DNA from: Saccharothrix longispora
GTDB lineage: Bacteria; Actinomycetota; Actinomycetes; Mycobacteriales; Pseudonocardiaceae
Direction: 5' to 3'
Assembly: GCF_030852425.1 (NCBI RefSeq)
Contig: NZ_NSDM01000017.1
Span: 63,899 to 127,898 of the forward strand
DNA length: 64,000 bases
This document shows positions 30,197 through 64,000 of the stretch, piece after piece. The translations under genes and the position numbers were made by a program. Every line of letters starts with the position of its first letter. Position 1 is the stretch's first letter. The notes below the pieces were generated by a model. The model did not search any database, was not told the origin of the DNA, and saw only the letters and a list, made by a program, of their open reading frames with translations.

Positions 30197-30203
30197 AGGG
30201 GTG

Positions 30204-31388: not shown

Positions 31389-31407
31389 GGAGCCAGTCTC
31401 ACAGCAC

Positions 31408-31953: not shown

Positions 31954-31989
31954 CCGGGTCGGGACCGGTCGGACCGCGACGAACGCGCC

Positions 31990-33081: not shown

Positions 33082-33215
33082 GTCGCTGCACCTCACCCGC
33101 TCGGTCGGCACCCACCGTGACGGTCACGGTTCGCGATGAGTACCCCGATCGGTGTACGAACACACGTTCCCGCGACGCACCCGGTAGAACCGCAGGTCGG
33201 GGGCGGGACGGTCGC

Positions 33216-33854
33216 TCAGGGCAGCCGGTCGTACCCGACGAAGGTGAACACGCGCCCGCCCGCGACCAACGGCCGCGGTTCACCGCGGAAGCGGTGCGCA
33301 CCGACGCCGAAGCCCTCGTCCGGCCCGGACAGCCAGTGGCGGTCGAACCCCCGCTGCTCGAACCACCCGCAGATCGACGGCACCAGGTCCGGGGCGCCGC
33401 GGTGCCGGGTCCAGAGCACCGTGCCACCGGTCGCGCACAACCGGGTGCAGGCATCGACGGTCCGCTCGACGTCCTCGTCGGTGATGTTGCCGAACACCCC
33501 GCAGACCAGCACGAGGTCCGCCTGCGCCAGGTCGAGGTAGTGGTCGGTGGCCGAGGCGTCGGCCGTCACCACCTCCACCCCCGCCAGGCCCGCCGCCCGC
33601 GCGGCCTCCGCCGCGATCCCCGCGTTGCGCGGGTCCAGCTCCACCAGGCGCGCGCGGACGTCGTCCCGCCTCGGGTGCCCGGCGAGCACCTCCAGCAGGT
33701 CGCGCCCCTGACCGGCGCACAGGCTGATCACCCGCAGCGGTCCCGGCGGGCCGTCGTCCAGGGCGGCCCTGACCTGCGCCTGCACGGCGCGCAACCGCAG
33801 CGACAGCGACGAACCGGGGCGGTCGTAGTCGTCGTGCCAACCGAGCCAGTCCAC
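33216..33854 (-). CDS. Class I SAM-dependent methyltransferase
   Basis: A 212-residue methyltransferase. The SAM-binding motif I is VISLCAGQGRDLLEVL, followed by ARLVELDPRN, VVTADASATDHYL and LVLVCGVFGNITDED, matching actinobacterial class I methyltransferases of unknown substrate. The start is GTG 33854. It is 76 bp downstream of the ATP-grasp gene on the same strand and may be its operon partner; N- or O-methylation of a ligated amino acid or peptide would then be a reasonable guess. Confidence 0.8.
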   Translation of the reverse strand: MDWLGWHDDYDRPGSSLSLRLRAVQAQVRAALDDGPPGPLRVISLCAGQGRDLLEVLAGHPRRDDVRARLVELDPRNAGIAAEAARAAGLAGVEVVTADASATDHYLDLAQADLVLVCGVFGNITDEDVERTVDACTRLCATGGTVLWTRHRGAPDLVPSICGWFEQRGFDRHWLSGPDEGFGVGAHRFRGEPRPLVAGGRVFTFVGYDRLP

Positions 33855-33930
33855 GGCGCCGACCCTACGGCGACCGGTCGGCGCCGGGAAGCCCCGCCGA
33901 CCGGACCGGCCACGGGCCTTCGCGTCCGGG

Positions 33931-35133: not shown

Positions 35134-35327
35134 GGGGCTCCCCCTGGGAGGTGGTGGGTCGACCGCGCCCGCCGCCCGGGTGGCGGGCGCGGGGCACGGC
35201 GTGAACGGTGCGGGTGACGCCGGAAACGGGAACGGGGCGGGGCCAGGAGCCGTCCGCTGCCGCGCCGCAGTCGCGCCTGCGGGCCGGATTCCGCGGAACC
35301 GCAGGTGACCAGCCCGGATGTGGGCTG

Positions 35328-35347
35328 TGTGGGACCACGGTCCCACA
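35328..35347. promoter_or_regulatory. 20-bp dyad between divergent genes
   Basis: TGTGGGACCACGGTCCCACA has perfect 9-bp arms around two bases. It lies midway in the 364-bp space between the minus-strand ATP-grasp gene and the plus-strand RsbW-like gene. The form suits a homodimeric repressor of either or both genes. A shorter GATGTGGGC copy of the half site lies just upstream. Confidence 0.5.
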
Positions 35348-35497
35348 TGTGCCCGCAGCACCCGACCGGCGGTGTCCCGCCGAGGCGTCCCGGAGGACGG
35401 GGACAGGGGTCGGGCTGAGGCGTGCGCCCGGCGATCACGGGTACCCCCGGGGAACCGCCGCGTGAGGGCGGTCGCCTCGTCCCCGGAAGAAGGCCCC

Positions 35498-35983
35498 GTG
35501 CCGATGCCCCCTCCCCCCGGTCCCGTCCCCGACAGGTCGTCCTCCGGGCACGGCCTGACCGAGGACGAGGTGTTCCTGGAGACTTCGGTGCGCTTCGGGA
35601 ACCTGGCCGCGGTGCGGGCCCGGATCGGCGTCCTGCTGGAGGCGTTCGGCGAGGACTTCGTGCAGGACGTGCAGCTCGTGTGCCACGAACTGGCCTCCAA
35701 CGCCTGCGACCACGCCGACGAGCCGCACCACCTCCGCCTGCGCAGGCGGGGCCGCGACGGGAGCGACGACCTGCTCGTCGAGGTCCAGGACGCCTCCGCG
35801 GACGCCACGCCGAAGCTCGGCACGTCGACCGCCGGACCCAACCGGGGCAACGGCATGAAGATGGTCGAGGCGCTCAGCGACGACTGGGGCGTGCGTCGCA
35901 CGGACGACGCGAAGGTCGTCTGGGCCCGCCTGCGCCTGCCGAGCCAGGACCGCTCGAACCGGGGCCTCCCGAACCGGAGCTGA
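35498..35983 (+). CDS. RsbW-like ATP-binding protein (HATPase_c anti-sigma/regulatory kinase)
   Basis: A 161-residue GHKL ATPase domain. The N-box is LVCHELASNACDHADEPHH, the G1 box LLVEVQDASADATP and the G2/G3 region GPNRGNGMKMVEALSDDWGV. Single-domain proteins of this kind in actinomycetes are either anti-sigma kinases or general regulators. GTG 35498 has GGAAGAAGG 4 bp upstream; ATG 35504 is also possible. It is one of three such domains in the window, the others being at 46642-47034 and at the end of the hybrid kinase. Its partner STAS or sigma factor is not adjacent. Confidence 0.82.
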   Translation: MPMPPPPGPVPDRSSSGHGLTEDEVFLETSVRFGNLAAVRARIGVLLEAFGEDFVQDVQLVCHELASNACDHADEPHHLRLRRRGRDGSDDLLVEVQDASADATPKLGTSTAGPNRGNGMKMVEALSDDWGVRRTDDAKVVWARLRLPSQDRSNRGLPNRS

Positions 35984-36112
35984 CCGGAGGCCGGGTGCCG
36001 GTGGGTCGAGCCGCCACGGCCGCGGCCGCGCCTGCCGGCTGATTCGGCGAGGTCGTCCGGGGACCGCGCCGCAGGACCGCCGTCGAACGACCGACAAGAC
36101 CCGAAGAAGATG

Positions 36113-36136
36113 TTGTTAACGCTAACGCGCTAACAA
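36113..36136. promoter_or_regulatory. TTGTTA/TAACAA dyad with GCTAACGC repeats
   Basis: TTGTTA (36113-36118) and TAACAA (36131-36136) are inverted around two partly overlapping GTTAACGCTAAC and GCTAAC elements. TTAxCGxTAA-type sites are common for LacI-family repressors of arabinose and xylose genes. It is an AT-rich island 275-298 bp upstream of the GH127 start. The rest of the 427-bp space (35984-36410) holds a promoter at 36277 but no gene. Confidence 0.45.
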
Positions 36137-36276
36137 TTCCGAGGTTGCGACCCGATTTTCAGATTCCGCAGTGCGCGAAATGTGAAGACCTCTGACCGGC
36201 ACTGCAACGGGTCCGAGTACTCGATCATCCACACTCGTCCGCTCAGGTGAGCGATCACATCAGAACGTCCACATCG

Positions 36277-36305
36277 TTGACGGACATCACCGTCGCCGTT
36301 ACCTT
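36277..36305 (+). promoter_or_regulatory. Promoter of the GH127 gene
   Basis: TTGACG (36277-36282), 17 bp and TACCTT (36300-36305) give a good primary-sigma promoter, about 105 bp before the GH127 start codon. Confidence 0.55.
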
Positions 36306-36410
36306 CGGGCCCTGCACCGATCCTTTCGACGTGGTTACCGACCCATTCGGGTTGACCACTCGCGAACGTGGTCGCCGTCAATGACGACGATGCAGGAATG
36401 AGGTAGCCCC

Positions 36411-38735
36411 ATGTCGTCCTCACGGTTCACCCGCCGCACGTTGTTGCAGGCCGCGGGCGTCGCCGCCGCCTCGACCGCGGCACCGGTCCTGCTCCAGGGG
36501 ACCGCCGCGGCCGACGCCGTGCCGCCGGTCCGGGCCGACATCGGCGTCTCGGCCCACCCGTTCGACCTCGGCCAGGCCCGGCTGACCTCGGGTCGCTGGT
36601 TGGACAACCAGAACCGCACCCTGTCCTACCTGCGGTTCGTCGACGTCGACCGGTTGCTCTACAACTTCCGCGCCAACCACCGCCTGTCGACGAACGGCGC
36701 GGCGGCGCTGGGCGGCTGGGAGGCGCCGAACTTCCCGTTCCGCACCCACAGCCAGGGCCACTTCCTCACCGCGTGGGCGCAGGCGTGGGTCGTGCTGGGC
36801 GACACCACGTGCCGCGACAAGGCGAACCGCATGGTCGCCGAGCTGGCCAAGTGCCAGGCGAACAACGCGGCGGCCGGGTTCAACACCGGCTACCTGTCCG
36901 GGTTCCCGGAGTCGGACCTCGACGCGCTGGAGGCCGGCAGCCCGAAGGCCGTCTCGTACTACTCGCTGCACAAGACGCTGGCCGGTCTGCTGGACGTGTG
37001 GCGCCTGATCGGCAACACCCAGGCGCGCGACGTCCTGCTGCGGTTCGCGGGGTGGGTGGACTGGCGCACGGGCCGGCTGTCCTACAGCCAGATGCAGCGC
37101 GTGCTGGGCACCGAGTTCGGCGGCATGAACGCGGTGCTCGCCGACCTGTACCAGCAGACCGGCGACAGCAGGTGGCTCACCGCCGCGCAGCGGTTCGACC
37201 ACGCCGCCGTGTTCGACCCGCTCGCCGCCAACCAGGACCGGCTCAACGGCCTGCACGCCAACACGCAGGTGCCCAAGTGGATCGGCGCGGCCCGGGAGTA
37301 CAAGGCGACCGGCACCACCCGCTACCGCGACATCGCGCGCAACGCGTGGGCCATCACCGTGGGCGCGCACACCTACGCGATCGGCGGCAACAGCCAGGCG
37401 GAGCACTTCCGCGCCCCCAACGCCGTCGCCGCGTACCTCAACACCGACACGGCCGAGGCGTGCAACACCTACAACATGCTCAAGCTCACCCGTGAGCTGT
37501 GGCTGCTGGACCCGAACAACGCGGCCTACTTCGACTACTACGAACGCGCGCTGCTCAACCACCTGATCGGCCAGCAGAACCCGGCCGACGCGCACGGTCA
37601 CTTCTGCTACTTCACCGGCCTGAACCCGGGGCACCGGCGGGGCAACACCGGTCCGGCCTGGGGCGGCGGCAACTGGAGCACCGACTACACCACGTTCTGG
37701 TGCTGCCAGGGCACGGGCATCGAGACCAACACCAAGCTGGCCGACTCCGTCTACTTCCACAACGGCACCACGCTGACCGTGAACCTGTACGTGCCGTCGG
37801 TGCTCGACTGGTCGCAGCGGGGCATCACGGTCACCCAGAGCACCACCTACCCCGCGAGCGACACGACCACGCTGACCGTGACCGGCAGCGTGGGCGGGTC
37901 GTGGACGATGCGCCTGCGCATCCCGTCGTGGACCAACGGCGCGACGGTCAGCGTCAACGGCGTAGCGCAGAACGTCGCCGCCGCGCCCGGCAGCTACGCG
38001 TCGCTCACCCGGTCGTGGACCTCGGGTGACGTGGTCACCCTGCGCCTGCCCATGCGGGTGGTCACGGTGCCCGCCAACGACAACCCGAACGTCGTCGCCG
38101 TCACCTACGGCCCGGCCGTCCTGGCCGGCAACTACGGCAACACCACGTTGTCCGCGCCGCCCTCCCTCGACGTCGGCTCGATCACCCGCACCAGCGGCTC
38201 GGCGCTCGCGTTCACCGCGCGGGCCAACGGCGCGACGGTCAACCTGGGCCCGTTCCACGACGCCCACGGCTTCAACTACACCGTCTACTGGAGCACCGGT
38301 GGCGGCAGCGGGAGCGGCAGCTACCGACTGGTCAACGCGGCCAGCGGCCTGGTGCTGGGCATCCGGGACATGTCCACCGCCGACGGAGGCCTGGCCCTGC
38401 AGTGGGGGGACACCGGCACCGCCGACCACAACTGGCAGATGGTCCCCGACGGCGCCAACGTGCGCTTCCGCAACGTCCACAGCGGCAAGGTGCTCGGCGT
38501 GGAGAACATGTCCACCGCCGACAACGCCCGCGTGCTCCAGTGGTCCGACACCGGCACCGCCGACCACAAGTGGACGCTCGTCGACAACGGCGACGGCACC
38601 CACAGGATCCGCAACGTCCACAGCGGCAAGCTGCTCGCCATCCAGGGCGGTTCGACCGCCCAGGGCGCGCAGGCGGTCCAGGACTCGGACAACGGCTCGG
38701 CCGACAACCGCTGGAGGCTGGTCCGCAACGCGTGA
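36411..38735 (+). CDS. Tat-exported GH127 beta-L-arabinofuranosidase with C-terminal CBM13
   Basis: A 774-residue secreted enzyme that should release beta-L-arabinofuranose from plant glycoproteins or pectin side chains. The start SSRFTRRTLLQAAG is a twin-arginine signal. Residues about 45-640 form the GH127 (DUF1680) domain. The zinc/catalytic set known from HypBA1 is preserved as Glu349 and Cys351 (AEACNTYNMLKLT) and Cys431-Cys432 (FWCCQGTGIETN). A Gly/Ser hinge near 640 leads to a ricin-type CBM13 with three repeats (HNWQM, HKWTL, NRWRL). ATG 36411 has a weak GAGG site. It has its own promoter and a 14-bp stem terminator. GH146 is a close relative, but the double Cys motif and length fit GH127. 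Confidence 0.9.
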   Translation: MSSSRFTRRTLLQAAGVAAASTAAPVLLQGTAAADAVPPVRADIGVSAHPFDLGQARLTSGRWLDNQNRTLSYLRFVDVDRLLYNFRANHRLSTNGAAALGGWEAPNFPFRTHSQGHFLTAWAQAWVVLGDTTCRDKANRMVAELAKCQANNAAAGFNTGYLSGFPESDLDALEAGSPKAVSYYSLHKTLAGLLDVWRLIGNTQARDVLLRFAGWVDWRTGRLSYSQMQRVLGTEFGGMNAVLADLYQQTGDSRWLTAAQRFDHAAVFDPLAANQDRLNGLHANTQVPKWIGAAREYKATGTTRYRDIARNAWAITVGAHTYAIGGNSQAEHFRAPNAVAAYLNTDTAEACNTYNMLKLTRELWLLDPNNAAYFDYYERALLNHLIGQQNPADAHGHFCYFTGLNPGHRRGNTGPAWGGGNWSTDYTTFWCCQGTGIETNTKLADSVYFHNGTTLTVNLYVPSVLDWSQRGITVTQSTTYPASDTTTLTVTGSVGGSWTMRLRIPSWTNGATVSVNGVAQNVAAAPGSYASLTRSWTSGDVVTLRLPMRVVTVPANDNPNVVAVTYGPAVLAGNYGNTTLSAPPSLDVGSITRTSGSALAFTARANGATVNLGPFHDAHGFNYTVYWSTGGGSGSGSYRLVNAASGLVLGIRDMSTADGGLALQWGDTGTADHNWQMVPDGANVRFRNVHSGKVLGVENMSTADNARVLQWSDTGTADHKWTLVDNGDGTHRIRNVHSGKLLAIQGGSTAQGAQAVQDSDNGSADNRWRLVRNA

Positions 38736-38762
38736 CCGCGCGGGTGCGCCGGCGTGCCGTGC

Positions 38763-38804
38763 GGCCCACGCCGCCCACCGGTTCCACGGCGGGCGGCGTG
38801 GGCC
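38763..38804. terminator. 14-bp stem terminator after GH127
   Basis: GGCCCACGCCGCCC (38763-38776) pairs exactly with GGGCGGCGTGGGCC (38791-38804), with a 14-nt loop. It is 28 bp past the GH127 stop and 24 bp before the GH27 start codon. Confidence 0.8.
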
Positions 38805-38827
38805 CACCCGACCACGAGGAGCCGGCG

Positions 38828-39702
38828 ATGGCGTGGGACAACGGGGTCGCGACGACCCCGCCGATGGGCTGGAACAGCTACGACTCCTTCAACTGGAACG
38901 TCACCGAGGCGCAGGTCGAGGCCAACGCCGACTACATGCGCGACAACCTCAGGCAGCACAGGTGGCAGTACGTCGTCGACTGGGCCTGGTACCGCCCCGG
39001 CAGCGGCACCGGCACGCCGAGCCGGGACGCGAACCTCCGGCCCAGGTCGCGCACCGACGCGAACGGCCTGCTGCTGCCCGACACCGCCCGCTTCCCCTCG
39101 GCCGCGGGCGGCAACGGCTTCAAGCCGCCGGCCGACCACGTCCACGCGGGCGGCCTGAAGTTCGGCGTGCACCCGATGCAGCGGCATCCCGCGCCAGGTG
39201 GTCGCGGACAACCTGCCGGTGCCGGGCACGAGCTGCCGGGCGAACGAGATCGACGACGGCACCACCGCGGCGTGGCTGAACCTGAACCGGGGCCTCGACA
39301 TGGCCAACCCGTGCGCCCAGGCGTACCTGGACGCCCAGTTCCGGCTGCTCGCCTCGTGGGGCGTGGACTACGTCAAGGTCGACGACATCGCCGCGCCGAC
39401 CTACCGGCAGGCCGAGGTCGAGGGCTACCGGCTGGCGATCCGGCGCAGCGGGCGGCCCATGGTGCTCAGCCTCCCCCGGCCCGACGTCGACCGCCCACGG
39501 CGCGCACGTCGCGGCCAACGCCACCATGTGGCGCGTCGTCAACGACCTGTGGGACGACTGGGCGGGACTGGACGCCCTGTTCGAGCGGCTGCACGCCTGG
39601 ACGCCGCACCGCGGGCCCGGCGCCTGGCCCGACCCGGACATGATCCCCATCGGCCGGCTGTCCCAGCAGGGCCCGGTGGGGTCGCCCCGCTACTCGAACC
39701 AG
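38828..39702 (+). pseudogene. GH27 alpha-galactosidase-like gene, two frameshifts and 3' deletion
   Basis: ATG 38828 has GAGGAG 6 bp upstream and opens a GH27 frame (PPMGWNSYDSFNWNVTEAQ, then GGLKFGVHPMQ). At 39182 the frame shifts: the expected RGIPRQVV continues in another frame (GIPRQVVADNLPVPG, LASWGVDYVKVDD with the nucleophile Asp). At about 39473 a second shift moves GPTSTAHGAHVAANATMWRV into the third frame, which continues with NDLWDDWAGL (likely acid/base region) and GPVGSPRYS. At about 39695 the enzyme sequence stops and a RidA-type sequence begins. The C-terminal half of the barrel and any CBM are gone. Two small indels and one deletion make this a clear pseudogene. Confidence 0.88.
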
Positions 39703-40041
39703 GGCGAGGTGGTCTCCGGGGCCACCCGGCCCCTGTACTGCTCCGGGCAGGCCGCGATGAGCGGCGAAGGCGAACCCCTGCACGCCGGTGACCTGGCGGC
39801 GCAGTTGGCGCTGAGCCTCGACAACCTGGAGGCCGTCCTCGGCGAGGCGGGCATGTCGCTCGCGAACCTCGTGCGGCTCACCGTCTTCACCACCGACGTC
39901 GACCTGCTGTTCCGGCACTACGGCGTGCCGGCGTCGCGGTTGGGCGCCGCCGGGGTCGCGCCGACCACGACGATGCTCGGGGTGACGAGGCTGGCGATCC
40001 CGGGCCTGGTCGTCGAGCTCGAGGGGACCGCCGTCGCGTGA
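39526..40041 (+). CDS. GH27 tail - RidA (YjgF/YER057c) chimeric reading frame
   Basis: From ATG 39526 an uninterrupted 171-codon frame first encodes about 58 residues of GH27 and then, from QGEVVSGATRPLYCSGQAAM at 39700 onward, about 113 residues of a RidA-family protein ending LVVELEGTAVA. RidA enzymes hydrolyse reactive enamines/imines from PLP chemistry. The domain looks complete except for its first 10-20 residues, replaced by galactosidase sequence at the SPRYSN junction. Whether a RidA product is made depends on an internal start; GTG 39711 lies inside the domain. It may be non-functional, but the RidA part has no internal damage. Confidence 0.6.
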   Translation: MWRVVNDLWDDWAGLDALFERLHAWTPHRGPGAWPDPDMIPIGRLSQQGPVGSPRYSNQGEVVSGATRPLYCSGQAAMSGEGEPLHAGDLAAQLALSLDNLEAVLGEAGMSLANLVRLTVFTTDVDLLFRHYGVPASRLGAAGVAPTTTMLGVTRLAIPGLVVELEGTAVA

Positions 40042-40048
40042 CCCGACC

Positions 40049-40942
40049 TCAAGGCTCCTCGGAGGTCCGCCGGTCGACCGCCGGGCGGACCCGGTCCCGG
40101 ACCTCGGGGAGTCGCCGGAACCCCGCCGACGCGTAGGTGGCGACGGCGCCCGCGTTGGAACCCGGCGTGCAGACGACCGCGCTCGACGAGCCCAGTTCCC
40201 GCAGGGCGGCGGCAGCGGCCACGGTGATCGCCCTGCCGTGGCCGCGACCGCGGTGGTCCCGGTGCACGCCCATCGGTTCGAGCAGCCCCGGCCGGCCCGG
40301 CCCGGCGGACCACACGGTCACCGCCGCCACGGCGTCGCCCCGCTCGTCGTGCGCGACCAGGCACCGGGCGTCGGCGTACGGCGCCCCGGCCGCCATCGCG
40401 CGCCACCGCTCGTCGGTGAACGTCGACCCGTCGAACGACGCCCGCTGCACGGCGGCCCGCACGTGCGCCCGCCCCGGCCCGATCACCTCGATCCGCGCAC
40501 CGGGGTCCTCCACCGGCTCCGCCAGGTCGCGGCGCAGCGGCGTCCACGGCTCGTCCACGCCCCAGCCGTCCCCGGACAGCAGGTCGTGCAGCAGCGCGTC
40601 CACCGGCGTCTCGACGCGCGCCTCCCCCGCCGGCAGCACGCCGCGCTCAGGCCGGGTCGCGTCCTCCGCCAACCGCCGCGCCAGCTCCTCGTCCCGCCGG
40701 GCGTCCGGCGCGGTCGTCAGGCGCAGCAACCCGGGACCGTCCAGCAGCCCGACGGCGAGGACCCGCCCGCCCCGGCTCCACGTCCGCACCGCCGCGGCCG
40801 TCGCCTCCGCGCCGAACCGCCGGAACCAGCCCAGGTCGCCGGGGTGCAGCTGCATCGGCGCGCCGTCGTGCTGCCACTCCCGCAGCACGCCCGCGGCCTC
40901 GTCCACCCCGTCGACGCCCGGTGTGCGCGTCGTGATCGCCAT
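40049..40942 (-). CDS. GNAT family N-acetyltransferase
   Basis: A 297-residue protein. The C-terminal GNAT domain has the acetyl-CoA motif A MGVHRDHRGRGHGRAITVAA and motif B GSNAGAVATYASAGFRRL. The N-terminal half is a degenerate GNAT-like region, as in two-domain actinobacterial acetyltransferases. The start is ATG 40942 with a short G-rich site. It converges with the RidA chimera, 7 bp away. The substrate is unknown. Confidence 0.85.
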   Translation of the reverse strand: MAITTRTPGVDGVDEAAGVLREWQHDGAPMQLHPGDLGWFRRFGAEATAAAVRTWSRGGRVLAVGLLDGPGLLRLTTAPDARRDEELARRLAEDATRPERGVLPAGEARVETPVDALLHDLLSGDGWGVDEPWTPLRRDLAEPVEDPGARIEVIGPGRAHVRAAVQRASFDGSTFTDERWRAMAAGAPYADARCLVAHDERGDAVAAVTVWSAGPGRPGLLEPMGVHRDHRGRGHGRAITVAAAAALRELGSSSAVVCTPGSNAGAVATYASAGFRRLPEVRDRVRPAVDRRTSEEP

Positions 40943-41066
40943 GCCCCGATCACACACCACCGCGCCGGCACCCGCACCCGGTTTCCGCCCCGGGGCGCGC
41001 TCCGGGTCGGGATAATCGCTGTCCCGCCGCGGAACGCGGTGGTACACAGCGGCGGTGGAGGAGACC

Positions 41067-41822
41067 TTGGCGTTCCCCGACCTGCTGCGGCTGATAGACG
41101 AGCGGTCGATCGCGTTCCGGGCCGCGGTGGACTCCGCGCCCACGCTCGACGCGCAGGTGCCGACCTGCCCCGAGTGGACGCTGTCCGACCTGGTGCGGCA
41201 CATCGGCGAGGGGCGCCGCACCTGGGCCGCCACCGTCGCCGCGGGACCCGCGGACGCCCCCGCGCCCGCGCCGGAGGGCACCGCCGCGCCCCGGGAGCGC
41301 GAAGCCGTGTCGGCCTGGTTGGCCGAGTCGACGCGGCTGCTGGTCGACGCGCTGCGGGAAGCCGGTCCGGACCGCGGTTGCTGGACGTGGTGGGGCGACT
41401 CGCAGTCGCCGCGGACCTGCGGCGCCGTCGCCCGGCACCAGCTCCAGCAGATGGTGGTGCACACCTACGACGCCCAGATCACCGCGGGCGTCCCGGAGCC
41501 GCTGCCGGTGGAGGCGGCGCTCGACGGCGTCGACGAGTTCCTCACCACCTGCTGCGCGACGACGGCCCCTTGGCCGCACGAGCCCGCCACCGTGGACTAC
41601 CACGCCACCGAGGGCCGTTCCTGGCGCCTGTGGCTCTCCGCCGACGGCGCGCGGACCGCTCCCCTCCGCACGCCGGGCGAGGGCGCGGTCGACGCCTCCC
41701 TTCGGGGGACGGCCGGCGAGCTGGTCCTGGCCCTGTACGGCCGCATCCCGGTCGACTCCCTGGGGCTCGACGGCGACCCGCGCCTGTTCGACCTGCTCAT
41801 GGCCTGGGACCCGACGCAGTAG
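41067..41822 (+). CDS. Maleylpyruvate-isomerase-family mycothiol-dependent enzyme
   Basis: A 251-residue DinB-fold protein with the MDMPI N domain (LLRLIDERSIAFRAAVDSAP, PTCPEWTLSDLVRHIGEGRR) and a C-terminal MDMPI_C-like domain. The metal-binding His pattern is in DLVRHIGEG and in RHQLQQMVVHTYDAQ. Such proteins use mycothiol as thiol cofactor; the specific reaction is unknown. TTG 41067 is preferred because GGAGGAG ends a few bases upstream and homologues begin near this residue; GTG 41055 is an alternative four codons longer. Confidence 0.85.
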   Translation: MAFPDLLRLIDERSIAFRAAVDSAPTLDAQVPTCPEWTLSDLVRHIGEGRRTWAATVAAGPADAPAPAPEGTAAPREREAVSAWLAESTRLLVDALREAGPDRGCWTWWGDSQSPRTCGAVARHQLQQMVVHTYDAQITAGVPEPLPVEAALDGVDEFLTTCCATTAPWPHEPATVDYHATEGRSWRLWLSADGARTAPLRTPGEGAVDASLRGTAGELVLALYGRIPVDSLGLDGDPRLFDLLMAWDPTQ

Positions 41823-41899
41823 GACGCGCGCCGACCGCTCGGGCGGCACCGGGAGGGGGACGCGGTGTGACGTAGGGTCGCGGAGCGGAGGTGAGGTCG

Positions 41900-42088
41900 G
41901 TGGCAGAGGCCGGTGGGGGTCCCGCCGAGGTGTCGCGGCACGACCGCGTCGACAGCGGCGGCGACCCGGTGTGCTGGTTGTCGCGGGTGTGCCCGGAGTG
42001 CGGTTTCCCGGCCGACGGCGAACCGGCCCCGGTGTGCCCGCGGTGCGGTGCGGCGGTGGCCGAGGACGAGGGTGGTGACCCGCGATGA
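41900..42088 (+). CDS. Small zinc-ribbon protein
   Basis: A 62-residue protein with two CxxC knuckles (RVCPECGFPAD and PVCPRCGAAV) that should bind one zinc ion, preceded by WLSRV. GGAGGTGAGG upstream supports GTG 41900; GTG 41891 is possible. Similar short zinc-ribbon proteins are widespread in actinomycetes without a known role. It follows the MDMPI gene by 77 bp on the same strand. Confidence 0.65.
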   Translation: MAEAGGGPAEVSRHDRVDSGGDPVCWLSRVCPECGFPADGEPAPVCPRCGAAVAEDEGGDPR

Positions 42089-42729
42089 CCTCCACGGCGG
42101 CGGTCGCCCGCGTGGGGTCGGGATGGTGCCGGCGATCTCCTTCCCGGGGACGCCGCCGACGTTCCGCGCCCCCGGTGTGACGGTCGTTGCCCGGCCCGGG
42201 CATCGGCCGGGTCGTGTTCCGCGCCCTCGACGTCGCCGAGGTGGTGCCGGCCGCGGTGGTCGTGGCGGTGGCGGTGCTCGGCGGGCCGCCCGACCGGGTG
42301 CCGGCCGGGGAGGACCCGCCGCGTTCCCGAGCGCACCCGGGTCCACGTGGCGCTCGAAGTGCTCGAGGTGGTGGCCCTGGCGGTGCCGGGCGTCGCGGGC
42401 CGAGCCCCGGGAGCCGCGGCTCCCGGAAAATCCGTTGCCGGCGGTCCCGCGGTTGAACACCATGGCGGCCATGTACCGGTAGGCAGTGGCGCACGTGCGG
42501 GACGAAGACGGGTCCGAGTCGCTCCCCGTCCCTCCCCGGCGTGCCTCCTGAAGCCCGCGCCTCGTGACGAGCGCGGGTTCCCGTCACACGACGTGATGTG
42601 CCACGTCGTGCCGGCCGGCGTGCTCCGCTCTCGCGGCGCCGGCCGTACGCCACTGTCCCGAGAGGCGGTCCGCGGCGCGCGGAAGCGCTGCCCGTCGCCG
42701 CCTCCGCATACCGGGGGTCGACCCGAGCC
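42089..42729. other. 641-bp gene-poor interval
   Basis: No frame is convincing. Short protein-like stretches change frame, for example MVPAISFPGTPPTFRAPGVT from 42123 and PGIGRVVFRALDVAEVVPAA near 42197, then VHVALEVLEVVALAVPGVAG near 42342. This suggests a decayed gene with indels. The right half holds two hairpins (42554-42577 and 42587-42610) before the DUF1062 gene. Confidence 0.45.
42554..42610. terminator. Two consecutive hairpins
   Basis: CCCGCGC/GCGCGGG (42554-42560 and 42571-42577) form a 7-bp stem around a 10-nt loop. CACGACGTG/CACGTCGTG (42587-42595 and 42602-42610) form a 9-bp stem around 6 nt. They may terminate transcripts from the left, or fold in the leader of the DUF1062 gene 120 bp downstream. 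Confidence 0.4.
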
Positions 42730-43377
42730 GTGAGTGAACTCCGCAGTACCCGTGTGCCCGTCGAGGGCGGCGGCATCGACCGGAAAGCGCTGTGGGTGGT
42801 CAGGGAGCTGGGCCTGCCCGCCATCGTCAAGGCGTGCGCGTCGTGCAGGTCCACCCGTCACCACCCCACCGGGAAGTTCCGGGTGAACGCCAACGGCAAG
42901 CTCCTCGACGTCTGGCTGCTGATCCGCTGTGAGCTGTGCGGGCGCGCGTCGAAGGTCCCCGTCCACGAGCGCGTCCGCGTGCAGTCGCTCGACCACGAGC
43001 GGCTGCCGGCGTTCGAGGGCAACGACCCGGCGATGGTGCGGCGGCTGACCGTGGACGCGGCGTTCGCCGGTCGGGCCGGGCACCGGCTCGACTGGAGCGG
43101 CACGTGGGAACTGGAGACGGACGTGCCGTTCTACGAGTTCGGGCGCGACGACCCGACGCCGCTGGAGGTCGTCGTCAGGTTCGAACTCCCGGCGCCCGTG
43201 CGGGTCGGGAAGCTGCTGACGGCCGGGTTCGGCCTGAGCCGGCCCGCCGTGCGGGACGCGGTCGCTTCCGGCCGCATCCACCTGCCCCTGGCCGTGGACG
43301 CGAAGGTCCGTGAGGACTTCACCTTCTTCGTCACCGCGCCGGCTCCGCCGCCCGAGGCGGCCGGGGGTCGGGGGTAG
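42730..43377 (+). CDS. DUF1062 protein
   Basis: A 215-residue protein of the DUF1062 family. Cysteine pairs CASCRSTRHHPTGKFRVNAN and IRCELCGRASKVPVHER suggest an N-terminal zinc site; the SGTWELETDVPF and FGLSRPAVRDAVASGRIHLP segments are also characteristic, the latter resembling an S4-like RNA-binding loop. RNA binding is therefore a reasonable guess. GTG 42730 follows a GGGGG stretch. It is convergent with the DUF4287 gene. Confidence 0.82.
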   Translation: MSELRSTRVPVEGGGIDRKALWVVRELGLPAIVKACASCRSTRHHPTGKFRVNANGKLLDVWLLIRCELCGRASKVPVHERVRVQSLDHERLPAFEGNDPAMVRRLTVDAAFAGRAGHRLDWSGTWELETDVPFYEFGRDDPTPLEVVVRFELPAPVRVGKLLTAGFGLSRPAVRDAVASGRIHLPLAVDAKVREDFTFFVTAPAPPPEAAGGRG

Positions 43378-43443
43378 GGCTTCCCGCCGCTCGTCCGCGT
43401 CGCGCGCGTCCTCCGGGGCGGGCGCGGCGCGGGCGCTCGGCCG

Positions 43444-43725
43444 TCAGCGGTCGGCGATGCCGTCCACGCGCAGCGTCGCGGACTCGTCCCGGTGGCTGCC
43501 GGCGCCGCCGACGTGCTTGTCGCTGATCCCGGTGCCGTTCTTGAGCACGTGGTAGAGCGCCATCCCGTGCCCGCGGCCCAGGTCGTAGTCCGCCTTGAGC
43601 CAGTCGAGGACCACCCCGGCCTTCGTGCCGGCGCCGTAGCCGCGGGCACCGGCCTCGGCCAGCAGTTCGACCGGGGTCTTGCCGGTCTTCCTCTCGATGG
43701 TGTCGAGGTAGGCCTGGAAGGACAT
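43444..43725 (-). CDS. DUF4287 protein
   Basis: A 93-residue cytoplasmic protein with the DUF4287 signature FQAYLDTIERKTGKTPVELLA, then GTKAGVVLDWLKADYDLGRGHGMALYHVLKNG. It fits the short helical proteins often regulated together with MarR/ArsR-type stress genes. ATG 43725 has GGAGG upstream. Direct repeats in its promoter region (43776-43802) suggest specific control. The biochemical role is unknown. Confidence 0.85.
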   Translation of the reverse strand: MSFQAYLDTIERKTGKTPVELLAEAGARGYGAGTKAGVVLDWLKADYDLGRGHGMALYHVLKNGTGISDKHVGGAGSHRDESATLRVDGIADR

Positions 43726-43775
43726 GGAGGTCTCCGCTCGTCTCGGTCGAGGTGTTCGAGGTCGGGGGCAGCTTA

Positions 43776-43802
43776 TGACAACTTTTTCTGTCCTGACAAC
43801 TT
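43776..43802. promoter_or_regulatory. Direct repeat TGACAACTT x2 upstream of DUF4287
   Basis: TGACAACTT occurs at 43776-43784 and 43794-43802, 18 bp apart, in a T-rich island (CTTTTTCTG between them). On the minus strand this gives TTGTCA spaced from CATAAG like a promoter, so a regulator binding the repeats would cover it. It lies 50-77 bp upstream of the DUF4287 start. Confidence 0.45.
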
Positions 43803-43952
43803 CTTTCTTCGGTGTTATCGCGGACCCCGGCGACCGGTCCCCACCGCCCTACTCGGCCCCGTACCCCGGCCACGACCACGCGGGGCCGGTCTCCGCCGCG
43901 CGGCGGACCGCCGCGCCTGACGACCGCCCACGTCGGCGCGCTCGTCCCGCGC

Positions 43953-46142
43953 TCACGTCGAGGGCAGCCGCTGGGGATCGGTCAGCAGGCCGGGGTGCCA
44001 GTTCTCCGGCAGGTCGGGCCTGCCGAACAGGTACCCCTGGAGGTAGCCGCACCCCGCGTCGCGCAGCCAGCGCGCCTGGTCCGGGGTCTCGACGCCCTCG
44101 GCCACCGTGCGCGCGCCCAGCACCGCGGCCAGGTCGATGATGCACCGCACCACGCCCTCGGTCCGGTCGTCCTCCCCGAGGCCGTCCGTGAACGACTTGT
44201 CGATCTTCACCAGGTCGAACGGGTAGCGGCGCAGGTAGTTCAGCGACGAGTACCCCGTGCCGAAGTCGTCCAGGGCGATGCGCACGCCCAGGTCCCGGAC
44301 GTCCATCAGCACCCGCATGGCCGCCTCGTCGGCCCACACCGACTCGGTGACCTCCACGGTGAGCAGACCCGCCTCCAGTCCCGTCGTGGTCAGCAGTTCG
44401 TCGACCTGGCGGGGGAAGGCCTCACCCGCCAACTGCCACGGCGAGACGTTGACCGCGACCCCCAGCGGGTGGCCGCCGCGCTGCCAGCGCACCGCCTGGC
44501 CGCACGCGCTGCGCAGCACGTGGGCGCCGAGCGGCACGATGAGGCCGGTCTCCTCCGCCAGGCCGATGAACCTGTCCGGACCGAGCAGCCCGCGACCCGG
44601 GTGCCGCCACCGCACCAGGGCCTCGGCGTGCGTGGTGCGTGCCTCGGCCAGGTCGATGATCGGCTGGTAGTGGAGCACCAGCTCCTCGTTGGTCAGGGCG
44701 GCGCGCAGGTCGGCCTGGTCGCGCTGCCGGGCCGCGACGTCCTCGCCCATGGCCCGCTCGAACGACCTGGCCCTTCCGCCGCCCTCCCGCTTGGCGACGT
44801 ACATGGCCACGTCCGCGTCGCGCAGCAGGTCCTCCGACGTGCGGCCGGTGCCGGCCCGTCCGGGCACGGCGATGCCGATGCTCGCGCGGATGGCGCGACC
44901 GCCGGGCCCGGCCAGCGCGGCCAGCACCCGCTCGGCCGGCCGCACGCCGCCGTCGCCGTCGCCGGGAACCGCCGTCAGCACGGCGAACTCGTCACCGCCG
45001 AGGCGGGCGACCACGTCCTCGGGACCGGTCGTGGACCGCAGGAGCCGGGCGGCCTCGACGAGGCGCCGGTCGCCTGCCTGGTGCCCGGCGGTGTCGTTGA
45101 CCTCCTTGAAGCGGTCCAGGTCGATGAGCAGGAGGGCGACCCGGGCGCCGGCGGCCAGGGCGCGGTCCACCAGGTCGAGGAAGTGGCGGCGCCCGAACAG
45201 CCCCGTCAGCTCGTCGCGCTCGGAGCGCTCGCGGAGCGCGTCCTCCAGCGCGCGGCGGGCCGTGACGTCCACGACCGCGACCACGACGCGACCGGGCCGC
45301 GAGTCGTCCTCGACACCGGTGGGGTGCAGCGTGAGGGCCGTGGCGCCGCCGCCCCGGTCGACGCGCAGCTCGACCGGTTCCTCCCCCGCCCGGGCGCACC
45401 CGGCGGGGCAGCCGGTGATGTCCGTGCCGTGAGGGCACGGCACGGTCCCCGACGAGGCCCAGCCGAGCAGGTCGGCCACGCGCTCGTTGAACAGCTCCGG
45501 CCGCCCGTCGCCGTCGAGCAGCGCGAGGCCGACCGGGCTGGCGCGCACGACGGCCTCCGTGGTGCGGTGCGCGTCGTCGGCGTACCGGCGCGCCGCTTCG
45601 GCCAGGTGGGCGGCGCGCGCCGTCTCGCGCAGGGCCGCGGTCCCGATGAGCAGGCCGAGCAGCGGCATGAGCACCGGGGCCAGCACCTCCGGTCCGGGCG
45701 GAGGCGTGTGCCGGTCGTCGAGCACGACGGACGCGCCGAACCCGAGCACGTACCCGAGCACCGGGCAGGCGGCCTTCACCGGGAAGCGGCCGGCGCCGTC
45801 CAGCAGGGCGCGGCGGACGGTGACGCCGAACAGGAAACCCAGCACCGGCTGCGGGTCCGGCAGCACGAGCACACCGGTCACGACGATGGCGGCTTCCGCG
45901 AACGCGGTGCCCCAGCCGTCCACCTCCGGCCACAGCAGCCACCCGCCCAGGACGAGCGCCACGGCGACCGACGCGGCACCGCCGACGACTCCCCCGGCCT
46001 GCGCGAGCCGCACCGCGAACACGACACCGCCGATCCAGGCGAACGCGGTCGTCAAGCGCCGCACCCGGCGGAGGCCGCGGTCGTGCGGCACACCCGGCGG
46101 TCCGCCGACCGGCGTGACGGCCGAGTGGGCAGAAGTGGTCAC
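43953..46142 (-). CDS. Membrane-bound GGDEF-EAL protein (c-di-GMP cyclase/phosphodiesterase)
   Basis: A 729-residue protein. About five N-terminal transmembrane helices (residues 30-170) are followed by a PAS domain (about 200-320), a GGDEF domain with an intact [10 protein letters not shown] site (GGDEF at 382-386) and an EAL domain with intact HAEALVRW (Glu507), [10 protein letters not shown] and [13 protein letters not shown]. Both active sites look functional, so it can in principle make and degrade cyclic di-GMP, which in actinomycetes controls development through BldD. The PAS domain contains [14 protein letters not shown], an unusual Cys-rich insert. GTG 46142 has GGGGAGGG upstream. 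It is a single gene. Confidence 0.92.
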
Positions 46143-46641
46143 GTCCCTCCCCGGCGACGACGTGATCGACCGCGGTCCCCGATCGACGCGGACCCCCGAG
46201 CGGTCCGCCCCGCGCTCCGACCGCCGCCGAAGCCTAGTGGAACGGCGACCGCCACAACCACTGCCAACGAGGAATATGCACATCCATAGAGGACGAATGC
46301 AGGCGGCACAGTGCCGACCGGGACGGTGCCGCGACACCCGCCGAACCGCACTCCCGACGGGCGCCGGGTCGGCACGGCGTCCCCCGGATCACCGCCTGTC
46401 CCGCGGCGCCCGCGAGGCGGTCTTCCCCGCCCCTGGAAGAGGACCAGCCCCGCGGGTGCCGCGTCCGGGAGCGGACACCCGATGGGAGCAACGCCCGGCG
46501 ACCCGCCCCTGTCCCGACCCCGCCCCGTCACCGCAACCCCCGCACGGGTGACGGCGGCGTCCGGGAATGCCGCGACTGTGGGAACCTGATCCCCACGCCT
46601 TGAGACCACAGGGTGTGTTTCATGCTGGAAAGGCACGGTTT
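46143..46641. other. Divergent intergenic region without a supported gene
   Basis: This 499-bp space separates the divergent GGDEF-EAL and RsbW-like genes. It contains an AT-richer island near 46264-46295 and an 8-bp inverted repeat CCGTCACC/GGTGACGG near 46522-46551. The frames present are Arg/Pro-rich shadows. It probably carries both promoters, but I cannot name -35/-10 elements with confidence. Confidence 0.5.
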
Positions 46642-47034
46642 GTGGACGTCGTCGAGCCGCCCGGTGACCACATCGACCTGGACCGGGAGGGCGGGTTCCC
46701 GCTGCACCGGGCGCGGCGGTGGATCACCGGCAGCTTCCCCGATGTGAGCCGGGAACGGCTCTCGACCCTGCTGCTGGTGGCCGACGCGTTGCTGGCCAAC
46801 GCGTTCGAGCACGCCGCCGGGCCGCGCAGGGTCCGGTTGCTCCGCTCGCCCGACCGGGCGCTGGTGCGCGTCGAGGTCGACGACGCCAGTCCCCACCTGC
46901 TGCCGGTGCTGGGGAGGCCCGGTGCCGCGGACCGGCGGCACCGGGGGCTGCTGCTGGTCAACCGGTTGTCCTCGCTGTGGGGCGTGACGCCCGGGGCCGA
47001 CCACAAGACCGTGTGGGCAGAGGTCGTGGTGTAG
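46642..47034 (+). CDS. RsbW-like ATP-binding protein (HATPase_c)
   Basis: A 130-residue GHKL domain. The N-box reads LLLVADALLANAFEHAAGPR, the G1 region VRVEVDDASPHL and the end RGLLLVNRLSSLWGVTP. It is slightly shorter and more divergent than the one at 35498. GTG 46642 is preferred because GGAAAGG lies 7 bp upstream; GTG 46615 would add nine residues. It probably acts as an anti-sigma or partner-switch kinase. It lies upstream of the GntR/ABC operon but is separated from it by a clear promoter. Confidence 0.78.
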   Translation: MDVVEPPGDHIDLDREGGFPLHRARRWITGSFPDVSRERLSTLLLVADALLANAFEHAAGPRRVRLLRSPDRALVRVEVDDASPHLLPVLGRPGAADRRHRGLLLVNRLSSLWGVTPGADHKTVWAEVVV

Positions 47035-61460: not shown

Positions 61461-61949
61461 TCAGGACGCGCCGGCGGCACGGTGGTGGCCATGGGGCACG
61501 GCGTCGAGCAGGGTGACCCGGATGGTGTTGCCGTTGGGGGCGCGGTAGGTGCGCTGGTCACCGGGGCGCGCGCCGGTGAGGGCCGCGCCCAGGGGCGAGT
61601 CCGGGGAGTAGACCTCGACGTCGCCGTGCTCGACCGCGCGCAGGCCCAGCAGGAAGGTCTCGACGTCGCCGGTGTCGTCGTAGCGGACGGTGAGCACCAT
61701 GCCGAGTTCGGCGACGCCGTCGTCGGGCGGGTCCTGGCCGACCACGGCGACGTTGAGCAATTCCCGGATCTCGCGGATGCGCTCCTCGCGCTGCCTGCGC
61801 GGCACCGCGCCGCGCTCCCCGGCCGCGTCGGTCTCGTCGTGGACCGGCGCGGCACCTGCCGCGAACAGGCCGGCGAGCTCGGTGCGCAGCCGCTGGTGGG
61901 CGTCGGGGCTCAGCCAGACGCGTCGGGTGCCGGGGTGGGTGCTGGTCAT
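61461..61949 (-). CDS. GreA/GreB-family transcription elongation factor
   Basis: A 162-residue protein of the GreA/GreB fold. The N-terminal coiled coil includes LSPDAHQRLRTELAGLF and ERGAVPRRQREERIREIREL. The C-terminal FKBP-like domain has ELGMVLTVRYDDTGDVETFL, EVYSPDSPLGAALTGARPGD and a final TIRVTLLDAVP. The coiled-coil tip is shorter and less acidic than in classical GreA, so it may be a paralogue with altered cleavage activity. ATG 61949 starts the frame. It is the last gene before a strong hairpin and lies 180 bp downstream of the 64-residue coiled-coil gene. Confidence 0.88.
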   Translation of the reverse strand: MTSTHPGTRRVWLSPDAHQRLRTELAGLFAAGAAPVHDETDAAGERGAVPRRQREERIREIRELLNVAVVGQDPPDDGVAELGMVLTVRYDDTGDVETFLLGLRAVEHGDVEVYSPDSPLGAALTGARPGDQRTYRAPNGNTIRVTLLDAVPHGHHRAAGAS

Positions 61950-62129: not shown

Positions 62130-62324
62130 TCAGCGGCGGGAGGCTCCGGTGGCGCGGCGGCCGAGGATGACCTCGAGGTCGTGGGCGTAGTCGGTGGCGA
62201 TGCGGGTGAGCACGTCGCGCTGGACGCGCAGGAAGGCGTTCTCCGCTCGCAACCAGGTCAGCTCCTCGCGCTCCTCGTCGGTGAGCGCGGCGCGGCCGTC
62301 CGGGACGGGGTCCGTGGTGTCCAT
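62130..62324 (-). CDS. Small coiled-coil protein next to dadA
   Basis: A 64-residue protein with a heptad-like helix (LTDEEREELTWLRAENAFLR, then VQRDVLTRIATDY). It resembles the C-terminal helix of IS3-type OrfA proteins, but there is no HTH, no downstream transposase and no terminal repeats, so it is more likely a stand-alone coiled-coil protein. ATG 62324 is 8 bp after the dadA stop, with GAGGGA overlapping that stop, indicating coupled translation with dadA. Confidence 0.55.
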   Translation of the reverse strand: MDTTDPVPDGRAALTDEEREELTWLRAENAFLRVQRDVLTRIATDYAHDLEVILGRRATGASRR

Positions 62325-62332
62325 GCGTTCCC

Positions 62333-63592
62333 TCAGCGCAGGGGGTCGAACGCCCGCAACGCGTCGGGCTGCTTCCCGGTGGTGATCCGCTCGGCCAGCA
62401 GCCGCCCGGTGACCGGCCCCTGGGCCAGCCCCCACATGCCGTGCCCGCCCGCGACGTAGACGTGCGGGGCGCGCACCGCGCCGATCAGGGCACGCCCGTC
62501 GGGTGTGACCGGGCGCGGGCCGACCCACACGTCGCGGCGCTCGTCCCAGCGCACGCCGTCGAGCAGCGGTCGGGCGGAGGCGGTGATCGCCTCCAGCCGG
62601 GCGTGGACGCCGGGGGCGTCGGGGTCGCGGAACTCCATCGTGCCCGCCACCCGCAGCCCGCCCTGGTAGGGCGTGCACGCCACGCGCACGTCCGGCAGGT
62701 GGACGGGACCGGGCACCGGGCGCTCGACCGGCACGGTGAACGAGTACCCGCGCCCCGCTCGCACCGGCACGCGCACGCCCCACCGGCGCGCCAGCCGCGA
62801 CAGCCACGCGCCGGTGGCCACGACCGCCACGTCGGCGGTCACGGCCCGGCCGCTGCGGGTGTGGACCGTGACCCCCGTGGCGTGGGAGCTGATGTCGACG
62901 GCCTCGACCAGGCGGACCGTCGCCCCCCTGGAGACCACGGCGCGGGCCAGCGCCCGCACGAAGGCCCCGGGGTCGGTGTAGCGCTGCCCGTCGACGCGGA
63001 CCCCGGCGGTGAGGGTCGACGAGGCCAGGGGGACGTGCTCGCGCAGCCGGTCGGCGTCGAGTTCGACGTGGTCGACGGGCTGCCCGGCGTCGGACATCCT
63101 GCGCAGCTCCCGCAGCAGCCCCTCCGCCTGACGGCGCGTCCCGAAGGCGGCGGTGATCGGCGCGTCGACCGCGGTGGCGTCGACGCCGTTGGCGGTGAGC
63201 ACGTCGAACGCCTCGACAGCCTCCTGGTTGAGCGGCAGGTTGGCCGCCACCGCGCGGGTCCACGACGACCACCGGCAGTTCACCGCGAACCTCGCCAGGA
63301 ACGACCAGAGCCCCGGGTCGACCGTCAGCGGGACGTGCAGGGGCGCGTCCGGTCGCAGCAGCGACCGCAGGCCGTAGCGCAGCACGGACGGCTCGTTGAG
63401 CGGGATCGCCAGGCCGGGTGCGATCCAGCCGGCGTTGCCCCACGAGGCGCCGGCCGCGATCGAGGTGCGGTCGACCACGGTGACCTCGACGCCGCGCTCC
63501 TGGAGGAACCACGCGGTCGACAGACCCACGATCCCCGCGCCGACCACGACCGCCGACCGCGGCCCGCCGTCGATGCGCTCCACGTCGACCAC
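62333..63592 (-). CDS. dadA: D-amino-acid dehydrogenase (DadA-like FAD oxidoreductase)
   Basis: A 419-residue FAD-dependent oxidoreductase (DAO fold). The dinucleotide motif is VVVGAGIVGLSTAWFLQERG near the N-terminus; GASWGNAGWIAPGLAIPLNE, VAVVATGAWLSRLARR, VWVGPRPVTPDGRALIG and VAGGHGMWGLAQGP follow in DadA order. It should oxidise D-amino acids to 2-oxo acids and pass electrons to the respiratory chain. GTG 63592 was chosen for GGAGG 5 bp upstream; ATG 63634 lacks a ribosome site. Two related dyads (63658-63706) lie in its promoter, and a PucR-type regulator gene ends just upstream, which probably controls it in response to an amino acid. Confidence 0.87.
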   Translation of the reverse strand: MVDVERIDGGPRSAVVVGAGIVGLSTAWFLQERGVEVTVVDRTSIAAGASWGNAGWIAPGLAIPLNEPSVLRYGLRSLLRPDAPLHVPLTVDPGLWSFLARFAVNCRWSSWTRAVAANLPLNQEAVEAFDVLTANGVDATAVDAPITAAFGTRRQAEGLLRELRRMSDAGQPVDHVELDADRLREHVPLASSTLTAGVRVDGQRYTDPGAFVRALARAVVSRGATVRLVEAVDISSHATGVTVHTRSGRAVTADVAVVATGAWLSRLARRWGVRVPVRAGRGYSFTVPVERPVPGPVHLPDVRVACTPYQGGLRVAGTMEFRDPDAPGVHARLEAITASARPLLDGVRWDERRDVWVGPRPVTPDGRALIGAVRAPHVYVAGGHGMWGLAQGPVTGRLLAERITTGKQPDALRAFDPLR

Positions 63593-63657
63593 GACCACCT
63601 CCACCAGGACGAGTGCTGCTGTCGAAGCCAGCATCGCCGGGAGGACGCACCGGCCTG

Positions 63658-63706
63658 TTGTCCGCGGCCGACAATTCGGGCACGGCCCTTTGTCGGAAGC
63701 CGACAG
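63658..63706. promoter_or_regulatory. Two dyads in the dadA promoter, probable PucR-type regulator sites
   Basis: TTGTCCGCGGCCGACAA (63658-63674) and TTGTCGGAAGCCGACAG (63690-63706) are each 17-bp dyads with 7-bp arms around 3 bp, and their centres are 32 bp apart (three helical turns). They lie 66-114 bp upstream of the dadA start, between dadA and the PucR gene. Their form matches the dyads flanking the other PucR gene at 30.2-31.4 kb. Confidence 0.6.
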
Positions 63707-63715: not shown

Positions 63716-64000
63716 TCAGCCGTTCTCGGCCGCGGCGAGGTCGATGATCATGGCGAGTCGCTTGCGCGGGTCGTCCAGGTCGAGCGCGGTCACCTCGGCC
63801 ATCTTGCGCAGCCGGTAGCGGATCGTGTTCGGGTGCACGCCCAGCCGGTCACCCGCCCCGCTCAGGTCGCCCTGGCACTCCAGCCAGGCGCGCAGCGTCG
63901 CCGCGTAGTGGGTGGCGTGCTCCTCGTCGTGCCGGCGCAACTCGGTCACCGGTCCCCGCGCCGGCGTCCGACCGGCCCGCGCCGCGGCGCGCAACCGCTG
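63716..64000 (-). CDS. PucR-family regulator, C-terminal part (truncated by window edge)
   Basis: The minus-strand frame is open to base 64000, and the last 95 residues of the protein are visible. They form the HTH_30 domain: ATHYAATLRAWLECQGDLSG, DRLGVHPNTIRYRLRKMAEV and a final helix ending AAAENG. It matches PucR/CdaR-type activators of amino-acid or purine catabolism. It lies directly upstream of dadA on the same strand, with 123 bp between its stop and the dadA start, and is the likely activator or repressor of that gene. Confidence 0.85.
   Translation of the reverse strand, partial: QRLRAAARAGRTPARGPVTELRRHDEEHATHYAATLRAWLECQGDLSGAGDRLGVHPNTIRYRLRKMAEVTALDLDDPRKRLAMIIDLAAAENG

Follow-up and report, generated by a model that had tools for sequence, protein, structure and literature searches.

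Two genes for PucR-family regulators lie well apart in the DNA analysed here, a stretch of 64,000 nucleotides (the window; G000:C9:63899-127898 of an 8.28-Mb host genome), and each is accompanied by short inverted repeats of similar build. Their presence raises the question of what these dyads are, which protein reads them and whether the two regulators share one operator or have one each.

Four dyads in a common frame

A preliminary description of this DNA had reported dyads at 30179-30195, 31408-31424, 63658-63674 and 63690-63706. When the sequence was read directly, all four were found at these positions with exactly the reported letters, and the centres of the last two were indeed 32 bp apart. 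The 7-bp arms with a 3-bp centre that had been ascribed to all of them are perfect in the dyads at 30179 and 31408. A single arm pair is mismatched in each of the dyads at 63658 and 63690, and the site at 63690, which ends in CAG, is one base off the proposed consensus TTGYCnG-N3-CCGRCAA. A 17-bp frame, TTG-N11-CAA, is common to the four. With up to one mismatch allowed, five places in the window fit the pattern, compared with a mean of 0.43 and a largest value of 3 in 100 dinucleotide shuffles. When spacers of 0-11 bp were tried, 7/7 arms beginning with TTG occurred only with the 3-bp spacer, and both cases are at pucR1. Over the whole genome a loose form of the pattern gave 7 places versus 2 for its reversed control; this loose search also returned dyads at C2:143639 and C10:97653.

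Based on the comparisons that follow, we put the probability at roughly 0.78 that two distinct PucR-family activators use the dyads as DNA operators, with one predicted operator type per paralog.

The PucR2 locus and its tandem sites

The 3' end of pucR2 occupies bp 63716-64000 on the minus strand. The full gene (L001:7615-9198) extends past the window and encodes a protein of 527 aa, in which a profile search identified HTH_30 (69.3 bits, cut-off 27) and found no GGDEF-like domain (PF17853) at E ≤ 1. Further along the same strand are genes for a dadA-like FAD-dependent oxidoreductase (PF01266, DAO; bp 62333-63592) and a protein with a GreA/GreB C-terminal domain (PF01272; bp 61461-61949), the last gene of the predicted PucR2 operon; a small ORF found in many relatives (bp 62130-62324, minus strand) separates the two. 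Dyad A (bp 63690-63706, CTGTCGG-CTT-CCGACAA on the minus strand) and dyad B (bp 63658-63674, TTGTCGG-CCG-CGGACAA on the minus strand) sit between the pucR2 stop codon and dadA, all on the same strand. Two observations led us to place the dadA start at the GTG at 63592. The ATG given in the ORF list (63634) coincides in part with the predicted -10 of the operon (GATGCT, minus strand, bp 63630-63635, 22 bp 3' of dyad B), and relatives have a ribosome binding site and start codon at the position of the GTG.

This -10 is predicted from the sequence and from close congeners, whose dadA promoters read YTGTCGG-N3-CCGACAA, 15 bp, TTGTCGG-N3-CGGACAA, 22 bp, GATGCT (in some, CATCCT), ribosome binding site and start codon. 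If GATGCT is taken as the -10, the centres of dyads A and B would fall near -75 and -43, and dyad B would touch the expected -35. Sequence and conservation mark dyad B as the predicted proximal PucR2 operator; sequence and the conserved 32-bp spacing mark dyad A as the predicted distal one.

To search for such pairs we used a strict tandem pattern, TTGTC-N7-GACAA twice with centres 32 bp apart, and its reversed form as control. The pattern matched exactly once in each of 12 of the 25 congeners, always adjoining pucR2 or dadA, and the control matched in none of the 25. The pair in G003 lies approximately 515 bp away from pucR2, directly upstream of dadA. When up to two mismatches were allowed, 35 places in 19 of the 25 genomes were obtained versus 24 for the control, which makes the relaxed search weak by itself; from it we used only the matches beside pucR2, where G019 and G020 were also recovered, and one upstream of a dksA-like gene. 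G020 has an additional relaxed match at C1:3728628. Among 249 genomes of the family, the tandem pattern had eight matches in eight genomes and its control had none. Six of the matches repeat the known congener places; the other two, in another genus, are flanked by the gene for a PucR2 ortholog (64-65%) on one side and a greA-like gene on the other.

A broader set combined 80 named PucR2 loci (the best 80 of 359) with the 25 congener loci; after three loci below 63% identity and duplicates were dropped, 94 of the 105 remained as distinct. In 38 of these 94 loci, the named ones being the best 80 of 359, the 220 bp around and after the pucR2 stop codon contained a dyad that matched in 6 or more of its 7 arm pairs; 50 shuffles gave 0.32 such loci on average and never more than 2 of 94. 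The remaining 56 loci had no such dyad in that region. Twelve within-region pairs were found in the 94-locus set, each exactly 32 bp apart. Sites numbered 50 in 20.7 kb of downstream regions versus 2 in 143.9 kb of pucR2 coding sequence and 21 in the more distant flanks (193.7 kb), and dyads on the upstream side were counted at 5 of the 94 loci. The sites remain at the promoter of dadA or of the greA-like gene in four loci that have either a divergent dadA or none. Goodfellowiella (L148) and Actinophytocola algeriensis (L164) have a dadA that is transcribed away from pucR2, with dyads in the space between the two genes; the sites follow the target promoter.

The closest named loci (among the best 80 of 359) belong to Saccharothrix and Actinosynnema, and the host genome is placed in the group of these two genera. 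Within the fetched DNA of these best 80, a dadA-like gene was found in 66, a greA-like gene in 55 and both in 46; greA occurs without dadA in 9, dadA without greA in 20, and neither in 5. At PucR2 loci lacking dadA, the next gene can be greA-like, dksA-like (L176) or of another kind. For three Mycobacterium loci without an adjacent dadA (L156, L192 and L195), the next gene resembles Rv1733c, and a Pfam search with it gave no match. A second tandem site in the host genome, with one mismatch, is located at G000:C2:282209, upstream of a dksA/traR zinc-finger gene (L003 about 7210-7821; C2:282209-282820), and G008 also has a tandem site (two mismatches) before its dksA-like gene. Homologues of this gene were identified in 3 of the 25 congeners, host included; in G016 the homologue comes after pucR2-dadA-greA. 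The amino-acid catabolic theme anticipated for the targets is not borne out at these loci, as the predicted PucR2 targets include greA/dksA-like RNA polymerase factors.

The PucR1 locus and its predicted promoters

pucR1 (bp 30204-31388, minus strand) encodes a 394-aa protein with GGDEF_2 and HTH_30 (PF17853, 69.5 bits; HTH_30, 69 bits, cut-off 27). Eight bp after its stop codon is the dyad TTGCCGGGAACCGGCAA (bp 30179-30195, minus strand), a predicted PucR1 operator at about -77 of a downstream transcript, for which the sequence suggests a -35 (TTGTCG, bp 30140-30145) and a -10 (GAGCAT, bp 30117-30122) on the same strand. A dyad in this downstream position is present in 12 of 18 pucR1 loci (L054-L069, L079 and L080), in one case with a mismatch. 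The dyad TTGCCGGAACCCGGCAA (bp 31408-31424, not assigned to a strand) lies between pucR1 and a divergent gene; it is 19 bp before the pucR1 start codon on the minus strand, and could therefore affect pucR1, and at about -77 of the divergent gene on the plus strand. That gene (bp 31534-31953, plus strand), a probable PucR1 target, is small and probably encodes a membrane protein (139 aa; no Pfam family above cut-off). Its predicted -10 (GACCAT, bp 31480-31485, plus strand) has the same spacing from the dyad in congener G001, before the homologous gene. The upstream dyad of pucR1 occurs only in the host species and G008, and a second copy, L079, has a different upstream site. A copy of the 31408 dyad was also observed at L005:6511-6527 (G000:C26), between an SPFH gene and a STAS-domain gene.

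TTGCCG-N5-CGGCAA is present in 18 of the 25 congeners: every one of the 16 that encode a PucR1 ortholog, and 2 of the 9 that do not (Fisher p = 7.5e-5, which is indicative only because the genomes are related and their independence is overstated). G016, scored as lacking PucR1, retains fragments of a PucR1-like gene at G016:C64:233559-233907. The bare motif is not enriched genome-wide in the 25 genomes (49 matches versus 100 for the reversed control), and our argument for the sites therefore relies on where they lie, how they are spaced and what they occur with, not on how often they occur. By eye, some of the 49 matches (e.g., in L106 and L118) look coding and do not resemble the promoters. 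A genome scan had been recommended as the check on the proposed pattern, with chance frequency counting against it. The strict tandem pair emerges from such a scan well above its control and the bare PucR1 motif does not; genome-wide chance frequency is a poor refutation test here, the PucR1 promoter positions being strongly conserved though the bare motif falls below control.

The promoter shared by these sites consists of the dyad, approximately 32 bp, a TTGTC-like -35, approximately 18 bp and a NANNAT -10, mostly followed by GCAGGTC. The distance from dyad to GCAGGTC is 89 or 90 nt in 15 of 15 distinct sequences, with a regular expression that allowed roughly 65-117 nt. The full pattern gave 17 matches in 14 of the 25 genomes, all PucR1-positive, and none in the control; the host match is at C2:147310. 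The window promoter at 30179 has its dyad, -35 and -10 in place and is absent from the GCAGGTC-based counts because GCAAGGC replaces GCAGGTC there. A set of 27 promoters was also assembled, in which the geometry is partly built in, as the script demanded TTGT or TTGC and A..AT in fixed windows; the variable-distance expression, the full-pattern count and a search of 249 family genomes are fairer tests. This last search gave 10 matches: eight within the genus, one beside PucR1 in G237, and one in G253 (L129), a likely false positive with no PucR1 within its 3-kb locus. Between dyad and -35, PucR1 promoters have a conserved GGCC-like block that is possibly a degenerate second half-site. On the opposite strand, a block beginning AGTCAGAAAATCTCCCACTTGG is conserved facing the dyad in L098, L110, L114 and L117 and precedes a conserved gene for a secreted-looking protein.

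Predicted PucR1 targets and a candidate G-rich non-coding RNA

PucR1-type promoters read into nfeD genes in L056 (Pfam NfeD, 59 bits), L059 and L060 (the latter two identified by eye), and an SPFH gene comes after nfeD in L107. The nfeD-SPFH pair of the host, on contig C26 (NfeD, 54 bits; Band_7, 140 bits), has the site TTGCCGACACCCGGCGA, with 11 of 12 half-site bases and the same geometry. In another genus (G237, L137), a 56% PucR1 adjoins a dyad promoter and an nfeD gene. Promoters of this type are also found before genes that, by eye, resemble those for a short-chain dehydrogenase (L002) and a glycosyltransferase (L066 and L067).

The 30179 promoter, like promoters of its kind in 11 other genomes of the genus search, is followed by a G-rich stretch in which no gene is evident and which closes with a long hairpin. 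In the window it corresponds to a predicted non-coding transcript at bp 29993-30111 (minus strand), with hairpin 1 at bp 30034-30061 and a terminator-like hairpin at bp 29993-30029; the prediction draws on covariation and a CM match. Nine of 23 predicted pairs are changed on both sides among 10 sequences. The RNA model R1, built from 10 of the loci that it later matched, identified the RNA in 12 of the 25 genomes, all PucR1-positive (best match per genome, E 1.6e-13 to 2.6e-4); G019 and G020 were recovered outside the building set, at the expected place. It found none in the 9 PucR1-negative genomes, with 150 of some 30,000-47,000 first-look candidates scored per genome. Loci bearing the RNA include L096, L110, L111, L113 and L114. 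Three weaker extra matches were seen, two in G005 and one in G009, and G022 (L117) has a similar hairpin by eye without an R1 match among the 150 candidates scored per genome. The window stretch had no Rfam match at the gathering score, and seven loci gave only far sub-threshold matches. As nfeD-SPFH, a small membrane gene and an RNA, the predicted PucR1 targets also depart from the amino-acid catabolic theme.

A probable separate operator type for each paralog

The preliminary description had merged all four sites into a single PucR-family operator. That they are PucR-type operators in one 17-bp frame is most likely correct, but they appear to be of two types: the fourth base separates TTGCCG (PucR1) from TTGTCG (PucR2), and a single dyad near -77 differs in layout from a tandem pair near -43 and -75. 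A single family read by both proteins, with cross-regulation through TTGYCG, would agree with half-sites one base apart in a common frame and with the presence of HTH_30 in both proteins. We consider it unlikely, as the sites part with their regulators as well as in layout. The nine congeners that lack PucR1 all keep PucR2, and G003 among them has the strict tandem TTGTC pair, yet seven of the nine have no TTGCCG site; conversely, the only three genomes that lack PucR2 (G005, G018 and G023) have TTGCCG sites and no strict tandem pair.

The sites might instead belong to another nearby regulator, such as the product of the MerR-family reading frame directly upstream of pucR2. There is little to recommend this, given that a search with PucR2 as the query led to sites in Saccharothrix, Lentzea, Amycolatopsis, Mycobacterium, Nocardia and Nonomuraea, that the presence of PucR1 predicts TTGCCG sites, and that MabR, itself a PucR protein, is described as binding the same frame (PMC5541348). 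That the 30179 dyad is a transcription terminator hairpin would suit its place shortly after the stop codon in 12 of 18 pucR1 loci and its perfect 7-bp arms around a 3-base loop, but we rejected this highly doubtful reading because no T-run follows the dyad, the outer arms retain identical letters without covariation, the 89-90 nt to GCAGGTC is fixed in 15 of 15 sequences (the window copy not among them; about 65-117 nt allowed) and the same dyad and promoter are also found away from pucR1.

With separate operators for PucR1 and PucR2 as the preferred reading, a model can be drawn in which the sequence, conservation and geometry of the sites and their co-occurrence with the regulators are observed, and binding, activation, oligomeric state and effectors are inferred. 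In a PucR dimer, the recognition helices of the two HTH domains would occupy successive major grooves of TTG-N11-CAA, and the bases after TTG (TTGTCG versus TTGCCG) would confer paralog specificity. PucR2 would bind dyads A and B in tandem on one helix face (32 bp, about three turns) and activate dadA-orf-greA from a position touching the -35, activation being favoured over repression by inference. PucR1 would bind single dyads centred near -77 and activate the non-coding RNA that follows pucR1, the small, probable membrane-protein gene divergent from it at 31534, and the distant nfeD-SPFH pair; the 31408 site may also tune pucR1. On this reading, conserved regulator-specific sites probably switch on an amino-acid oxidase/transcription-factor operon for PucR2 and, for PucR1, a small RNA together with genes for membrane proteins. 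More tentatively, PucR2, as a PucR widespread in actinomycetes, might couple an amino-acid oxidase to GreA-like and DksA-like RNA polymerase secondary-channel factors through its 32-bp tandem operator, so that a sensed metabolite would reset transcription globally; PucR1, with an operator one base different, would drive nfeD-SPFH and an undescribed G-rich RNA.

A third PucR and comparison with known systems

The host genome encodes a third PucR, beside fabD-fabH, that on sequence is clearly MabR-like: it matches both MabR structure entries (E 2.4e-70 for 9f80, and 3.3e-35), and the same MabR C-domain matches PucR1 with E 2e-13 and PucR2 with E 1.2e-6. Between this gene and fabD is the perfect dyad TTGTAGGAACCCTACAA (TTGTAGG-AAC-CCTACAA; L008:4791-4807), which is kept at 6/7 or 7/7 in all seven congener loci L072-L078. 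Of 14 loci scanned around other PucR genes, this one (L008) had a 7/7 dyad and L014 a 6/7 dyad; the other 12, including L009 with a 53-55% PucR2 paralog, had none. Judged from these sequences, the common frame is TTG-N11-CAA and the inner bases vary by paralog.

Three PucR paralogs of one genome with conserved dyads in a 17-bp frame suggest a simple recognition rule, TTGTAG / TTGTCG / TTGCCG, which assigns predicted targets to two uncharacterised regulators. Because PucR2 loci (best 80 of 359) range from Saccharothrix, Lentzea and Amycolatopsis to Mycobacterium and Streptomyces, a large group could be annotated at once. If true, PucR1 and PucR2 would represent operator divergence by a single base among paralogs within one genome. 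We found no description of these operators in the titles and abstract openings of the open-licence papers that our searches brought up.

Few PucR-type operators had been defined according to one account of the family, in which about half of the members have the GGDEF-like domain (PMC7652997). Of the FAS-II regulators in this family, MabR (Rv2242) is described as an activator that recognises TTTTGT-N9-ACAAAA; its site is at about -87 in M. tuberculosis, and that of its S. coelicolor orthologue FasR is at about -67 (PMC5541348). The spacing of the MabR recognition helices is reported to suit two adjacent major grooves (PMC11617747). The MabR/FasR site includes TTG-N11-CAA, the frame of all dyads here (PMC5541348); the PucR2 sites, TTGTC-N7-GACAA, also fit its longer form TTGT-N9-ACAA, whereas the PucR1 sites, with C as fourth base, fit TTG-N11-CAA only. 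Because the fabD dyad and the published MabR site have the same 17-bp frame, the dyads of the window are new sites of an already known operator type. A position upstream of the -35, as would suit an activator, is suggested by the predicted -10 and -35 elements.

PutR (17-bp inverted repeat) and AdeR (24-bp) of Bacillus subtilis, PucR-family activators of amino-acid catabolic genes (PMC7652997), resemble the present systems in the size of their inverted repeats and differ in organism and targets. GabR of Corynebacterium glutamicum, also a PucR-family activator, has two inverted repeats just upstream of the -35 and no GGDEF-like domain (PMC7652997), as predicted here for PucR2 with dyads A and B; it differs in its 21-bp repeats and its GABA target genes, and is an octamer (PMC7652997). 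MabR and FasR, like PucR1, combine GGDEF-like and HTH domains with a single upstream dyad, but differ in inner bases, target genes and, for MabR, a suggested long acyl-CoA effector (PMC5541348). In domain make-up and in single versus tandem dyads, PucR1 therefore resembles FasR/MabR and PucR2 resembles GabR.
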